A stretch of 25,652 bases of DNA from a virus. The notes under the pieces are model-generated. The model had not been told where the DNA came from and did not search any database. It saw only the letters and a list, made by a program, of their open reading frames with translations. This document shows, piece after piece, positions 3,931 through 23,002 of this stretch (its first letter is position 1; the number at the start of each line of letters is the position of its first letter). The stretch spans positions 1 through 25,652 of the IMG/VR virus record IMGVR_UViG_3300012929_000042; one strand, given 5' to 3'. The position numbers and the translations under genes were made by a program.

Positions 3931-4205
3931 GGCTGCTCCTTTTCGATTTGCTTGACCAACTCCATTTCCGGATGCCGCTTTCGGTAGGCAGCAATCGCTG
4001 CTATCCGTGCTCGCACCTCCGACCTGGAAGATTCAGTCCAATCGTTCTCGGCAGGGAACCACAGGTCCATCGAATGTGCCTGAATACGAAGCTTGTCAAG
4101 CAAAGCAAAATCTTCGACGGTATCGGCTCCACAGCCTTCGCCGGCAGCGGCCTGATACCAGCCGGTGAGAATGCCAATCTCTTCGGCGCTTAGGTCGTAG
4201 GTCAT
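3915..4205 (-). CDS. Hypothetical 96-residue protein
   Basis: The start at 4205 ([20 protein letters not shown]) was chosen because it overlaps the TGA of the HNH gene as ATGA. A longer frame exists but runs into that gene. The product is acidic at the front and highly charged and helical at the end ([20 protein letters not shown]). Its stop lies just after the SD of the SDR gene, so the two are probably coupled. No domain recognised. Confidence 0.7.
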
Positions 4206-4633
4206 ACAGAAAGTCTTGCCCTTCTGGCTCTCATGTAGTTGCGACTGTAGCAAGTCTGGCATTTTTGGCAGTTGCATTTCGCGGGCATAGGCCCTCTCTT
4301 TCTTGGTTTCTTATGAGAGCGTTGATTTGCCCGCTGCTCTTTATGTGTTGACCATTTACAGTTCTCTGGGGAGTACGGCCCGTTATTGTCCTTGCGGTCA
4401 AGAGTCATCCCGTCAGGACGCTCGCCCATGTCACTGACGAACGTAGCTGGATCGTTCAGCCATCTTTCGCAAACGGTTATGCCACGGGCGCCATAAAGAT
4501 AGTAATCAGAATTGCCAGGAGAGCAACATCGAGATTTCATGGCCGCCCATATATCATAAATCTTGGTTTGGCAAAGTCCGTGCCTGTACTTCGGATTGGC
4601 TGAGCCCGCGTACTGTCCTGGAGAGGCGCTCAC
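4202..4633 (-). CDS. HNH nuclease with C-terminal Cys cluster
   Basis: The 143-residue product carries the phage HNH signature [20 protein letters not shown], then ITVCERW, then [19 protein letters not shown] followed by EQRANQR. The D..N..G.Y.PENC.W block is the metal-binding and catalytic core. A basic tail holds CNCQKCQTC, a likely zinc knuckle. It is a close relative of the HNH protein at 22430-23002. Such free-standing HNH enzymes nick or cut DNA and often behave as homing elements. The gene overlaps both neighbours by four bases, so it has been built into the operon without breaking coupling. Confidence 0.85.
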
Positions 4634-5235
4634 TTTGCGATCACCGCATTTTCCTGGTTGAGGTGGACCATTTTGTAGCCGTACTTCTCGGCCACTTGCA
4701 TGACCTCCACGGCCCTGCCATTATGCTCCCAGCATATTACCCTGGGACGGTGGTCGGTTCGCAGCAGCGCTATCGTCACCTCGGTAGAGTTGCCTTCGAT
4801 ATCGATGCTGGCGAAGTCGATCTGTCTGTCGCCAAAGAACTGATCCAGTAACTTCCGCACCGTCAGCGTTGGCACCCAAAGATTGCCATAGAATCCGCCG
4901 TCTTTCTCCCAGAGCTTCAGATGCTTCGCGTCGTTTCCGCTCAGTGCGTCGTCAGTGATGCGGAACTCAGCGACGTGGCCCGGCTCTGCGGTGATGGCCG
5001 CCGCTATGACCTGCACGCGCTCGAAGATGTGGGCGTACTCGCGAATCAGCTTGCTCACGGGGATTGGCGAGAACTCGCACAGCACTGCGCTCCAGCCGGC
5101 CTCGATGAGTAGCCTAGAGTTGCTGAGGTTGATCGGCTCCCATGCACCAATTTCCAGGAGCGTGCCTTTGAAATCGGGAGGGAACTGCGCCGCTACGATA
5201 AGATCTTCGCCGTTCTGGCTTCTCGATTCGCTCAT
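4630..5235 (-). CDS. FkbM-family SAM-dependent methyltransferase
   Basis: The start at 5235 ([20 protein letters not shown]) is set by ATGA overlap with the upstream stop and gives 201 residues. Features are SQNGEDL at the front, [17 protein letters not shown] (SAM-binding motif I region), then [25 protein letters not shown] (the D.DIEG signature of FkbM enzymes) and [10 protein letters not shown]. FkbM proteins O-methylate sugars or polyketides, so this enzyme probably methylates a hydroxyl on the product of the neighbouring glycosyltransferases. No membrane segment is seen. Target inferred only from context. Confidence 0.85.
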
Positions 5236-5498
5236 TTCGAAGTCACCACCCAATAGCCTGCTGTGTTTTGGAGCCGGACATCTGTTGTGATAGAGATAAT
5301 CTGACGGGTCCTGGCGAAGTCAGCAAGCGCCTTGCCGAACTCTGACGAGCACCCGAAATAGTAAACACCGCTTCCGTAGGCATCGATTCGGCAACCGCTG
5401 TCTGGAGTAAGCCTTCCGATTGCGCCTTCCGGCGTTCTGCTGGAAAAATATATTAGGATGCCAATAATCGCCGCACATCCGAGCATCACGTATTTCAT
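5232..5498 (-). CDS. Small N-terminally anchored or secreted protein
   Basis: The start at 5498 is set by ATGA overlap with the methyltransferase upstream and gives 88 residues. MKYVMLGCAAIIGILIYFSS is a hydrophobic N-terminal segment acting as signal peptide or anchor. The rest is a small domain with two cysteines (SGCRID and YYFGCSSEF) that could form a disulphide outside the membrane. It ends in a beta-like [11 protein letters not shown]. The Cys at position 8 lacks a convincing lipobox. It is the only clearly membrane-targeted product in the glycan-modification array. Confidence 0.68.
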   Translation of the reverse strand: MKYVMLGCAAIIGILIYFSSRTPEGAIGRLTPDSGCRIDAYGSGVYYFGCSSEFGKALADFARTRQIISITTDVRLQNTAGYWVVTSK

Positions 5499-6256
5499 TC
5501 GCATCTCGACCAATAGTCCTGAAAGTCCACCATCGCCGCCTTGTGAGGCGCGAAGTCCATCGCCGGGTCGGGCGTGTGGTTTGGCGGGAACCAGCCGCGC
5601 TCTGCTTGCTCCACTAGTGGCATCGGATCGTTCATTCGCAAGGTCGCCACGTCATGCCCCCTCCAGCAGCACGCCACCCCATTGGGCGTCCAGTACACCC
5701 GGCAGCGCCAGCCGTTATCCATCAGCCAGCGAACGCCGTCGCGAATAGCCGGCCCCAGGAAGTCGTGGAACATGATGATGCAGTCCGGCTTCGCGTGAGC
5801 GTGCGCTCCCATGGCATCGTTCAGTGGCTCTGGACTATCGTGGCAGCCGTCGATTACGAAGCCGTCGTATTTGTTGGTATCGAATTCAAAGAATCGCGAT
5901 GCCGTGCAGGCGTGAATCCATATATTCCATTCAGGCCCGACATTTTCCAAGAACCGCTTGCGAAATTCGGGCTGTTTGAGCTCCGGATCAACACACCATA
6001 CGATACCATTCGTCATCCAGTTAATGTGCTTTGCGGTCCAGCCGAGGCGACATCCGATGTCAACCCATTCGGAATGGAGCGGCAGAGATCCAGCGATGGT
6101 GCAAAGAATTGCACATTCATCAACCGTCCAATAGGTGCAGTTCGGATCGAATTCCGGATCGCTCGGCGCATCGTAGCCGCAGTGCTGCTTTGGCGGGTCG
6201 AGGAGTTTGAAGTAGGGGCGCAAGTCTGGAGCCGACAGATTGCTTTTGTAGATCAT
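5495..6256 (-). CDS. Class I SAM methyltransferase (Methyltransf_24-like)
   Basis: The 253-residue product has EWVDIGCRLGWTAKHI as SAM-binding motif I, IVWCVDPELKQP as motif II with the acidic residue that holds the ribose, YDGFVIDGCHDSPEPLNDAM, and CIIMFHDFLGPAIRDGVRWL. This ID..H....D....G....HD pattern is typical of Methyltransf_24 enzymes found with glycosyltransferases. The N-terminus IYKSNLSAPDLRP is repeated at the front of the next gene upstream. The ATG overlaps that gene's TGA (ATGA). Acceptor unknown. Confidence 0.78.
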   Translation of the reverse strand: MIYKSNLSAPDLRPYFKLLDPPKQHCGYDAPSDPEFDPNCTYWTVDECAILCTIAGSLPLHSEWVDIGCRLGWTAKHINWMTNGIVWCVDPELKQPEFRKRFLENVGPEWNIWIHACTASRFFEFDTNKYDGFVIDGCHDSPEPLNDAMGAHAHAKPDCIIMFHDFLGPAIRDGVRWLMDNGWRCRVYWTPNGVACCWRGHDVATLRMNDPMPLVEQAERGWFPPNHTPDPAMDFAPHKAAMVDFQDYWSRCE

Positions 6257-6498
6257 ATCAGGTTTACATAAAACCGAACTTCGAATTCTTTTAGTTCGGC
6301 TTTGATTGAAGAGTGGTTTTCTCTCAGCCAGTTAGTGAGTTGCGCGCTTGTATCGAAATACTCTATGATCAGTTGCCAGCTAACACATACTGGGCCACGA
6401 TCCATAACGCGCTCGAAAATCTCCCACATGAACGCCTTTATCTCTTGATGACTGGGGCGCAAGTCAGGGGCGCGGAGGTTGCTTTGGTAGATGGCCAT
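6253..6498 (-). CDS. Hypothetical protein sharing the N-terminus of its neighbour
   Basis: An 81-residue product. Its first 15 residues, MAIYQSNLRAPDLRP, match the start of the following methyltransferase (IYKSNLSAPDLRP) in protein and closely in DNA, after which the two proteins are unrelated. The remainder is a mixed helical domain (SHQEIKAFMWEIFERVMD, later LTNWLREN) ending FEVRFYVNLI. The ATG lies just after the stop of the upstream gene and the stop overlaps the next start (ATGA). Function unknown. Confidence 0.7.
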   Translation of the reverse strand: MAIYQSNLRAPDLRPSHQEIKAFMWEIFERVMDRGPVCVSWQLIIEYFDTSAQLTNWLRENHSSIKAELKEFEVRFYVNLI

Positions 6499-6499
6499 T

Positions 6500-6688
6500 T
6501 TAATCGCTCGTGACGATCATTCTGTACTCTGCATAGCCGTCGCGAATTGTGTAGGAAGAAAAGACAGCATGCACGGTAATGTTATTTATCGAAAGCCGCA
6601 CCGCTCTCGGAACATCCCCTTTCGACAACTCGGACTCCAAACGTGAGTCTTTAGTCATAATCACCACCTCTTGGCGTCTGCTGGTCAT
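6500..6688 (-). CDS. Small hypothetical protein
   Basis: A 62-residue product. The ATG at 6688 overlaps the glycosyltransferase stop (ATGA), so this start is preferred over the internal ATG at residue 11. The beginning is charged (MTSRRQEVVIMTKDSRLESE) and the end is beta-like (YTIRDGYAEYRMIVTSD). No motif or family recognised. Confidence 0.58.
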   Translation of the reverse strand: MTSRRQEVVIMTKDSRLESELSKGDVPRAVRLSINNITVHAVFSSYTIRDGYAEYRMIVTSD

Positions 6689-7485
6689 ACGTTTCTGAAC
6701 CTACTCCCTTTCCCGTCGTCTCTGCCGCTCGCTCCGACTTGCAGGAATAATTGCTGATACCAATCGTCAGTCCCGTGCGCTGCCAACTCCGCGTTGCCAA
6801 ATTGGCACGCCTCGCGGTAGAGGTGATAGCCGTACTTATGCGCCAATAGGCTGAGGATCGCTTGCTCCGTGCGGTGCTGTTCGAAGCCTTTCAGTTCCTT
6901 GCCATTGCAAATCACGCTCGGGCCAAAGGTGGTGGCGAGTGGATTTAGGCAGTAGCTCAACCACTCCATGAGAAACTGCTGAACATGCCAATGGCCTTTT
7001 TGAAACAGCATAAACCTTGCAACGGCGTGCTGGGAGTCGGGCAGCACGGGATGCCTGTTGGGCGGCAAATATCCTTCGGCCGCCATCGTCACCCAGCAAT
7101 CAGCCTTCACCCACTGGCGATTACTGCACCCCTGTGCCGCGAAGAGCATCTGCCCACCGTCCTGCGCGCAGCGTTCGTACAGCGGAGAGAGGTCGGCAAT
7201 GGGGTAGCAATCACCATCGAGGTAGCATACAACATCGCCCTTTGCCGTTCCCTGGTTCTGTAGGGCATCTAGGATTACCAGCGGCTTCCAGGCGAACCAG
7301 CAGAGGCCGCGGACGCCAGGAAGCTCGAACAGCCAGCGGTTGAGTTCGTAGAAGGGGTGCGCCTTGAGGAATACATCATCGTAAACGAGCACCTGATCGA
7401 CACCGAACTTCGCGGCATCGCGCACGGTGATGGCAGTGGTGGCTTCGTAAGCGCTTCCGCCGAAGGTAATAAGGAAACGAGTCAT
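6685..7485 (-). CDS. Glycosyltransferase-like protein (DXD type)
   Basis: The start at 7485 (MTRFLITFGGSAYEATTAIT) is set by ATGA overlap and gives 266 residues. The product has a GT-A-like layout. WFAWKPLVILDAL precedes GDVVCYLDGDCYP, where DGD is the DXD metal site. EQHRTEQAILSLLAHKYGYH is the late acidic/helical segment common in transferases that use UDP- or GDP-sugars. It has no membrane segment. It differs from the GT2-type proteins in the array, so it probably adds a different sugar. Donor and acceptor unknown. Confidence 0.75.
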   Translation of the reverse strand: MTRFLITFGGSAYEATTAITVRDAAKFGVDQVLVYDDVFLKAHPFYELNRWLFELPGVRGLCWFAWKPLVILDALQNQGTAKGDVVCYLDGDCYPIADLSPLYERCAQDGGQMLFAAQGCSNRQWVKADCWVTMAAEGYLPPNRHPVLPDSQHAVARFMLFQKGHWHVQQFLMEWLSYCLNPLATTFGPSVICNGKELKGFEQHRTEQAILSLLAHKYGYHLYREACQFGNAELAAHGTDDWYQQLFLQVGASGRDDGKGSRFRNV

Positions 7486-7976
7486 GCGCACTCCAGTTTC
7501 AGGCGTGGCAATGAATCAAAGAACCGCATGCCCGCTGCCGTCAAGCGCACCGTAATCCATCGTTCGCTGTAGAGATACATGTAATATTGGACCAGTTCGA
7601 AATATCCAGCCACGATGGCGGCCTGGGCTGCGGCGATGTCTTTGTACCAGCGATACGTGATCTCTGCACCGATACCCTTGCCATCCAAAAGAACGCAGCC
7701 GTCATAGCGCGGATACGCCAGGGACTCTATTGGGGACGGCTCCGCTTTCGCACGGTCATTTGCCCACCAAAGCACGCCAGTCGGAGTTACCTCATATTTT
7801 AGATCGCCAAGCTCGCGAAGTCTGCCGTCGTCCACAAGCGGCTTTAGCCAATCCACATACCAACCCCTGCGCTTGCGCCAGTCCTTGACATCTGACACGG
7901 TGCCCATGCCGTTCATGAAGCATTCAATAACCCACCAGTCCGGCGCTGGCGTCGTGGCCTCTTCTTTTCTGGTCAT
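7482..7976 (-). CDS. Hypothetical protein with two winged-helix-like halves
   Basis: A 164-residue product with ATGA overlap at both ends. Two segments look alike: WLKPLVDDGRLRELGDLKYEVTPTGVLWW and, near the end, a YFELVQYY segment running into WITVRLTAAGMRFFDSL. Both have a helix, a short turn and a beta strand leading to 'T..G', as in winged-helix domains. This suggests an internal duplication and possible DNA or protein binding. This is inference from pattern only. Confidence 0.62.
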   Translation of the reverse strand: MTRKEEATTPAPDWWVIECFMNGMGTVSDVKDWRKRRGWYVDWLKPLVDDGRLRELGDLKYEVTPTGVLWWANDRAKAEPSPIESLAYPRYDGCVLLDGKGIGAEITYRWYKDIAAAQAAIVAGYFELVQYYMYLYSERWITVRLTAAGMRFFDSLPRLKLECA

Positions 7977-22185: not shown

Positions 22186-22433
22186 GACTTGCGCTCTAGA
22201 GCATCGATAGCGGTGCAGCACGCCAAGCACACGGTACAGTGAGCTGGGTCGCAATCATGTACTGGAGCAGCCTCTAAGGCCCGCTGTATGCTCATAAGCG
22301 CCGCCCGCAGCCGCTCGTTCTCACCATCAGCCGCAACTATCCGCAGCGCATCCTCATCTGTTTGGCATTGGCCGACCAGTCGGTCGCCTTCGTACAGGTT
22401 GCGCGTGACTTTGGTGCCGGTCCGATAACTCAC
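22182..22433 (-). CDS. Hypothetical protein with Cys/His cluster
   Basis: An 83-residue product with ATGA overlaps at both ends. The start MSYRTGTKVTRNLYEGDRLV is beta-like, followed by a long helix (ENERLRAALMSIQRALEAAP). The last part HDCDPAHCTVCLACCTAID carries five Cys and two His, a possible metal site. This layout of helix plus Cys cluster is seen in small phage early proteins. Confidence 0.68.
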   Translation of the reverse strand: MSYRTGTKVTRNLYEGDRLVGQCQTDEDALRIVAADGENERLRAALMSIQRALEAAPVHDCDPAHCTVCLACCTAIDALERKS

Positions 22434-23002
22434 CTAATTGCCCCAGGATTTACATTACTGCTCCTGCGTGGGCTGGTTCTTGCCACGTTCGCATCCCATC
22501 CAGCTTTAATCCTCCACCTTATGGTGCTTTCGCCAAGATCCTTACTACCATATACCTCAGGCTGGCGAAGAAACACCTTGTCGATACTCAGTCCTATCCT
22601 TAAACGGCGGCGAATAGTGGTCACCGCTATTCCAGTTTCTCTTGACCACGCAGAAAGCGACTGTCGTTTTCCTTCGTGCTCGATATATGAGCACTGCCGT
22701 GTATTATTCTGCTGCTGAATTGGCGTAGCCCATCGAAGGTTTCCAGGCTCATAATTTCCATCGTTGTTGATACGGTCAACAGAATATTCGGGGGAAGGCC
22801 TTGGACCGATCTCGGCGAGTAACTCCGAGCAAAAAACCACCGCGCTTGCTTTCCATTCAGGGGACATTTTAATGCCGCGACCGCCGTAGTAATTTCTCTG
22901 TTCATACTTCAGAGAATAGCAGCGCTTTTTGATTTGCTTCCACGCCCTATAAAACACACGGGTTTCCTCGTTAGATTCCAACCTAGCCGTTCTAATCGCC
23001 AT
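22430..23002 (-). CDS. HNH nuclease with DNA-binding C-terminus
   Basis: A 190-residue product. YRAWKQIKKRCYSLKYEQRN, YYGGRGIKMSPEW, then YSVDRINNDGNYEPGNLRWA and QQQNNTR match block by block the HNH protein at 4202 ([39 protein letters not shown]). After the core, SLSAWSRETGIAVTTIRRRL is a helix-turn-helix-like repeat segment as in homing nucleases. SD GGAGG lies before ATG 23002. It probably is a mobile intruder; a 16-codon ORF upstream may be a remnant of the site it entered. Confidence 0.85.
   Translation of the reverse strand: MAIRTARLESNEETRVFYRAWKQIKKRCYSLKYEQRNYYGGRGIKMSPEWKASAVVFCSELLAEIGPRPSPEYSVDRINNDGNYEPGNLRWATPIQQQNNTRQCSYIEHEGKRQSLSAWSRETGIAVTTIRRRLRIGLSIDKVFLRQPEVYGSKDLGESTIRWRIKAGWDANVARTSPRRSSNVNPGAIR

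Follow-up and report, generated by a model that had tools for sequence, protein, structure and literature searches.

Free-standing endonucleases carry flanking sequence along with them by co-conversion (PMC2988022), and nuclease genes mark exchange boundaries between phages (PMC10448857). The papers cited by PMC number are drawn on here as excerpts, and what is said of them extends to those excerpts. The closest described systems each resemble the locus reported below in one respect or another. The likeness to intronless homing by free-standing HNH and GIY-YIG enzymes, represented by mob and seg in phage T4, lies in the placement of endonuclease genes between conserved genes and, perhaps, in the exchange of neighbouring sequence (PMC2988022). 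HEG-bounded exchange regions of phages likewise have nuclease genes at the exchange boundaries (PMC10448857), and the HNH endonucleases of lactococcal Skunavirus are comparable in their recurrent insertion locations and variable flanking genes (PMC12724721). Amplification of segB in T6 offers a further likeness, in that duplications there are associated with an endonuclease locus and the ends of two genes share microhomology (PMC13096335).

The locus described here lies in IMG/VR virus record IMGVR_UViG_3300012929_000042, positions 1 to 25,652; this whole stretch of 25,652 nucleotides is called the window. In it, the start of a methyltransferase gene is present twice, once on the methyltransferase itself and once on a small adjacent gene, ORF81.

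A duplicated gene start

The features under discussion are the following.

4202 to 4633, minus strand: HNH endonuclease gene (phrog_3377); in six relatives a homologue adjoins or overlaps the start of the methyltransferase
5495 to 6256, minus strand: SAM-dependent methyltransferase (P0002, Methyltransf_24); the shared motif forms the N-terminus of its family
6215 to 6256, minus strand: methyltransferase start now in use, MIYKSNLSAPDLRP, its first 20 nt identical to those of L022
6253 to 6498, minus strand: ORF81, chimeric, with a methyltransferase-type start and an unrelated 66-codon tail
6454 to 6498, minus strand: extra methyltransferase start of 15 codons, MAIYQSNLRAPDLRP, agreeing with the start in L005 at 43 of 45 nt and with that in L008 at 37; probably the older of the two
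6253 to 6453, minus strand: ORF81 tail, GC 0.43 against 0.56 for the window
6500 to 6688, minus strand: ORF62, a small ORF found only in the window and its twin contig
6685 to 7491, minus strand: upstream gene, glycosyltransferase-like by eye only, which in L005 directly precedes the methyltransferase (TAATG junction)

As read from the ORF translations, ORF81 begins with MAIYQSNLRAPDLRP and the methyltransferase with MIYKSNLSAPDLRP, and the two frames overlap by four bases, ATGA. The DNA copies at 6454-6492 and 6215-6253, which are 239 nt apart, align without gaps and are identical at 31 of 39 positions (79%). Direct BLASTP comparison of the two proteins found 11 identical residues among 13 (E 1e-5) and no significant similarity beyond the first 15 residues, the other two matches having E-values of 1.3 and 41. 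When the starts of 15 chosen window genes were compared with one another (105 pairs), the ORF81/methyltransferase pair agreed at 28 of 36 nt at its best offset, and the runner-up at 18 of 36. The match is not a product of chance, which is excluded by both the BLASTP result and the 105-pair comparison. An earlier note, made from the letters of the DNA, had claimed that the two adjacent genes have a common 5' coding segment after which their proteins share nothing, and it was correct on both counts. Homology over the full length of the two proteins, which would have made the match an everyday one, was looked for by BLASTP and was not found; for the first codons alone, ordinary homology is the explanation.

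The duplicated start is unlikely to be an artefact of one assembly. The twin contig, 3300015264_000040, differs from the window by one mismatch over 10,759 nt and contains the 1,997 bases of 5495-7491 exactly, so that a fault in a single assembly is improbable. Among the 24 related records, only the twin has a second methyltransferase-type start.

ORF81 carries Y-x-S-N-L-x-A-P-D-L-R-P, the conserved N-terminal motif of the P0002 methyltransferase family. A SAM-binding Rossmann domain was not found in it, as there is no Pfam match up to E 0.1 and nothing resembling P0002 after residue 15. Judged from its sequence, ORF81 is not a methyltransferase. The GC content of the region 6253-6688 is below that of all 505 sampled segments of equal size. 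A scan of viral contigs for close relatives of the tail (residues 16-81), which can miss distant ones, returned none; phage records gave no match better than E 3; and in 16 related records nothing besides the twin matches ORF81 past residue 24. ORF81 has a weak match to phrog_26658 (E 0.046), and in these scans it is known from one virus only, represented by the window and its twin. The methyltransferase and other neighbouring phage DNA were considered as sources of the tail and set aside, no match being found. A single-sequence model of the tail (mean pLDDT 65.6) has the order helix-strand-helix-helix-strand-strand. This order hints at a winged helix, a reading that is not claimed here, the best match to PDB folds reaching only E 0.88.

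ORF62 and ORF81 together fill the 428 nt between the methyltransferase and the gene at 6685-7491, which has no family match above cut-off. These two flanking genes are directly joined in L005. The spacer between the methyltransferase and the homologue of 6685-7491 is thus absent in L005, consists of an HNH gene in L008, and consists of ORF62 and ORF81 in the window. In another relative, L032, an ORF that looks radical-SAM-like by eye (it has a CxxxCxxC stretch) lies 625-25 nt before the methyltransferase.

The methyltransferase family and its two starts

The window methyltransferase scores 30.1 bits against Methyltransf_24 (PF13578), above the curated cut-off of 26.3. Its predicted model (pLDDT 87) has a fold nearest to those of methyltransferases and O-methyltransferases. 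First among these is MeT1 of Mycobacterium hassiacum (PDB 6g7d, 6g80), which is the best match by sequence as well as by fold. Identity to MeT1 is 15-17% among the matches listed, and the match by sequence does not begin until profile position 38, which places the shared N-terminal motif outside it. MeT1 acts on a sugar. Near the window methyltransferase are two GT2-type glycosyltransferases, a MocA-type oxidoreductase, a short-chain dehydrogenase and an FkbM methyltransferase. A small ORF at 5232-5513, with a third-position GC of 0.57 and no family match, overlaps the end of the methyltransferase and the start of the FkbM ORF.

The 5' end of the methyltransferase encodes Y-x-S-[N/K]-L-x-[A/C]-P-D in 23 of 23 contigs in which it is readable. 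This tally counts the window and its twin once and leaves out L025/L045, which is without a 5' end. Nine of the 23 lack the form of the motif that served as the search pattern and were found through another pattern, yet still carry the motif, which is therefore not merely an artefact of the search. A degenerate DNA pattern for Y-x-S-N-L-x-A-P-D-L-R-P found eight sites in seven viral contigs; seven are starts of methyltransferases related to that of the window, and the eighth is ORF81 in the twin. A scan with a variant of the motif returned six contigs, all within those seven. The second-pattern scan returned twelve, of which eleven are known methyltransferase contigs (assigned by contig name, not each re-read). 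The remaining one, L062, has no methyltransferase; its motif-like letters stand in a chance frame that ends 14 residues further along. The shared peptide is thus the N-terminus native to this family of phage methyltransferases. That family was not found in the phage collection, and none of 29 pattern matches in bacterial genomes was confirmed as belonging to it.

The two starts in the window differ in their closeness to the methyltransferase starts of relatives. Both of the changes that separate the first 45 nt of ORF81 from L005 (43 of 45 identical) are silent; the same stretch is identical to L008 at 37 of 45. Over the motif block, ORF81 agrees with L005 at 35 of 36 nt and with the window's own methyltransferase start at 28 of 36. 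Among 1,874 segments of 15 codons in eight genes aligned between the window and L005, none reaches 43 identities, the maximum being 42, in the methyltransferase; among 1,872 such segments aligned with L008, one reaches 43, also in the methyltransferase. In the nine motif codons, all 27 nt of ORF81 are identical to L005, against 19 of 27 for the window methyltransferase (Fisher P 0.004). The window methyltransferase itself matches L005 at those 19 of 27 nt in codons 2-10 and at 92 of 105 nt in codons 11-45 (Fisher P 0.04 for a break), while compared with L008 it has no break between the same two blocks (Fisher P 0.61). With 12 of 14 identical codons, the ORF81 start is unusual when set beside other genes (P 0.002), though less so beside the methyltransferase average (P 0.024); codons 11-40 of the methyltransferase have 20 of 27 identical. 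The comparison with L005 lends modest support to the suggestion that the older start is the one on ORF81, the methyltransferase having acquired a new one. The comparison with L008 does not support this argument.

Ribosome-binding-site values in the window are -2.2 for the ORF81 start and -2.4 for the methyltransferase start, neither stronger than the background median of -3.0. In-frame ATGs inside ORF81 at codon 24 (-3.7) and codon 32 (-6.9) have better values than its first start, and in life ORF81 may be translated from inside its tail.

As a separate observation, the L005 and L008 methyltransferases are only 11-56% identical in amino acids over alignment columns of about 80-140, between flanking blocks of 84-100%, as if a segment in the middle of the enzyme had been exchanged. 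The DNA identity of the neighbouring upstream gene in this pair falls too, in its second half.

Insertions at the methyltransferase start

An HNH gene abuts or overlaps the methyltransferase start in six of the 23 contigs (L008, L009, L011, L022, L026 and L030), its reading frame ending 0, 1 or 4 nt into that start. A census of phrog_3377 counted 12 HNH genes in nine of 24 records, half of them (six) at the methyltransferase start. The chance of finding six HNH genes at this start is 2e-8 to 1e-6, a figure calculated for 23 methyltransferase starts and for genes of 500-1000 nt treated as independent of one another, and made optimistic by the relatedness of the phages. Identities between pairs of HNH genes disagree with those between the corresponding methyltransferases, as in the pair L011 and L009 (49% for the HNH gene and 76% for the methyltransferase), a disagreement which indicates that the HNH genes arrived or were exchanged repeatedly. 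Insertions of another kind occur as well. L055 and L056 have an unrelated small gene (MDKQEIANKLK...) within about 290 nt before the methyltransferase, aligned flush with the methyltransferase ATG and with its stop 5 nt before it; this gene is missing from L044 and L051, which are closely related to them. The start of the methyltransferase has taken up insertions repeatedly. At the ORF81/methyltransferase junction of the window phage itself, an HNH gene is absent. The HNH genes that the window has elsewhere, at 4202-4633 and 22430-23002, have third-position GC of 0.53 and 0.49, against 0.66-0.77 in the eight cassette genes compared.

Carriers and non-carriers of the HNH gene also differ in the distribution of their mismatches near the methyltransferase start. 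Between L008, which has the gene, and L005, which has none, 10 of the 13 mismatches in 120 nt are confined to a 19-nt stretch, nt 36-54 (simulated P 1e-5, or 2e-4 with third positions only, for a patch width that was picked after seeing the data). This patch comprises seven changed codons with one amino-acid change, and it is centred on the point at which ORF81 departs from the methyltransferase. Over 150 nt counted from the Tyr codon, the carriers L011 and L009 differ from the non-carrier L010 at 17 and 20 positions, of which 10 and 9, respectively, lie in the first 24 nt; between L011 and L009, both carriers, only 2 of 10 mismatches lie there. L051 and L055, which differ by an insertion other than HNH, show no mismatch cluster. 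Clustered changes accompanying the presence of HNH were seen in two groups of relatives, the two that were compared.

Origin of ORF81 and comparison with known systems

We consider it likely that the ORF81 start is an old methyltransferase start, left behind by recombination with incoming DNA at an exchange point. Direct support comes from the nativeness of the motif to the methyltransferase, the presence of its start in two copies, the different composition of the tail together with the lack of relatives found for it, and the recurrence of insertions. On these grounds the earlier note's suggestion of a recombination scar at gene starts stands as far as its marks are concerned: ORF81 is an extra copy of a native start followed by unrelated low-GC sequence, at a place where relatives have repeatedly taken up insertions. 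Against this explanation, no donor with the ORF81 tail or ORF62 was found among viral contigs, phage records and related records, and the event therefore cannot be reconstructed.

The course that we infer, including a foreign origin for the tail, would be as follows. Phages of this group would swap upstream genes at a boundary formed by the methyltransferase start, with crossovers falling inside its first 10-20 conserved codons. The incoming piece would have consisted of the 3' part of a small gene followed by a replacement start, of the MIYKSNL type, for the methyltransferase. It would have recombined into the methyltransferase gene at the conserved 5' block, its other end being joined behind codon 15 of the old start without demonstrable homology. 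The new start would then have come to head an intact methyltransferase, and the old start, in frame with the incoming piece, would have come to head ORF81. Through the ATGA overlap, ribosomes finishing ORF81 could restart on the methyltransferase, a putative translational coupling. Further observations speak against this course: the junction has no HNH gene, the insertion in L055 and L056 came with no cluster of changes, and the motif of ORF81 is undecayed, when in an old dead scar it should have decayed.

The undecayed motif, with both differences from L005 silent, would suit the earlier note's other proposal, a targeting or docking tag, in which the 15 residues would serve as a transferable N-terminal module directing the two proteins to one partner or complex. 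Strong conservation of the motif in the methyltransferases also favours a tag. A recent copy would be intact as well, however. The motif sites that could be read, which do not include the pattern matches left unconfirmed as relatives in two family searches (8 of 25 and 5 of 29), were methyltransferase starts, ORF81 in the twin and the single 14-residue chance frame in L062, and ORF81 was found in one virus only; we regard a tag as very improbable. The arrangement of the copies, in tandem and in the same orientation, would agree with a plain tandem duplication of the phage's own methyltransferase start, the first copy then having changed into the tail. Such a duplication is quite unlikely, given that the ORF81 start is nearer to L005 than to the window's own start over the motif block and that the tail is without similarity to the methyltransferase protein and deviates in GC content. 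Hardly credible is a self-splicing intron, with the 15 codons of ORF81 as exon 1 and the part of the methyltransferase that follows its own motif as exon 2. The spliced product would begin like the L005 and L008 proteins, but the methyltransferase already has a full start, which leaves splicing unneeded, and no Rfam covariance model, that of the group I intron catalytic core included, matched 5400-7600 at E 5 or better.

A special case of the favoured explanation, recombination with incoming DNA, would assign the initiating double-strand break to an HNH endonuclease that cuts the methyltransferase 5' end or nearby, ORF81 being the result of one-sided illegitimate repair. The HNH genes at this start in six relatives, the seven-codon patch of the HNH-bearing L008 centred on the ORF81 breakpoint, and the head tracts in L009 and L011 are all consistent with this, as is the movement of flanking sequence with free-standing endonucleases by co-conversion. 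However, the cut made by such endonucleases is described as falling hundreds or thousands of bases away from the endonuclease gene (PMC2988022), no HNH gene is present at the junction in the window, and ordinary phage recombination could give the same result. HNH-driven homing at the methyltransferase start is plausible but unproven, and as the origin of ORF81 we rate it possible, though doubtful. It is unlikely that the methyltransferase 5' end around nt 36-54 is the site cut by a family of HNH homing endonucleases whose genes insert at the start codon, and that carriers protect themselves by near-silent recoding of this site, as L008 may have done. ORF81 would then be the fossil of a cut made there, after which repair with a foreign end left the old start at the head of a new gene.

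If recombination with incoming DNA did produce ORF81, the phage would have gained a chimeric small gene without losing the neighbouring enzyme, the incoming substitute start freeing the old one to head something else. The relatives, which have an HNH gene, other small genes, no insertion or a scar, would together be a compact system in which to study endonuclease-guided exchange of accessory genes at one start. The event is of a known kind, of which this locus is a clear example, and the set of relatives with varied insertions adds interest. Searches of a limited text collection found no literature on the motif letters, on genes of bacteriophage partially duplicated by or along with illegitimate recombination, or on an insertion hotspot joining an HNH endonuclease with a methyltransferase and a glycosyltransferase.

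Set against the described systems, the locus has features of its own. Unlike intronless homing (PMC2988022), it has no enzyme at the scar; the trace consists of a duplicated start and an unrelated tail. The HEG-bounded regions involve essential genes and large islands (PMC10448857), whereas here it is an accessory methyltransferase, part of a cassette of sugar enzymes, whose start makes the boundary. The Skunavirus endonucleases concern other phages and other loci, and the excerpted account of them does not describe a fused gene start (PMC12724721). The segB locus of T6 underwent tandem amplification under selection (PMC13096335), whereas in the window phage a single start has been duplicated.
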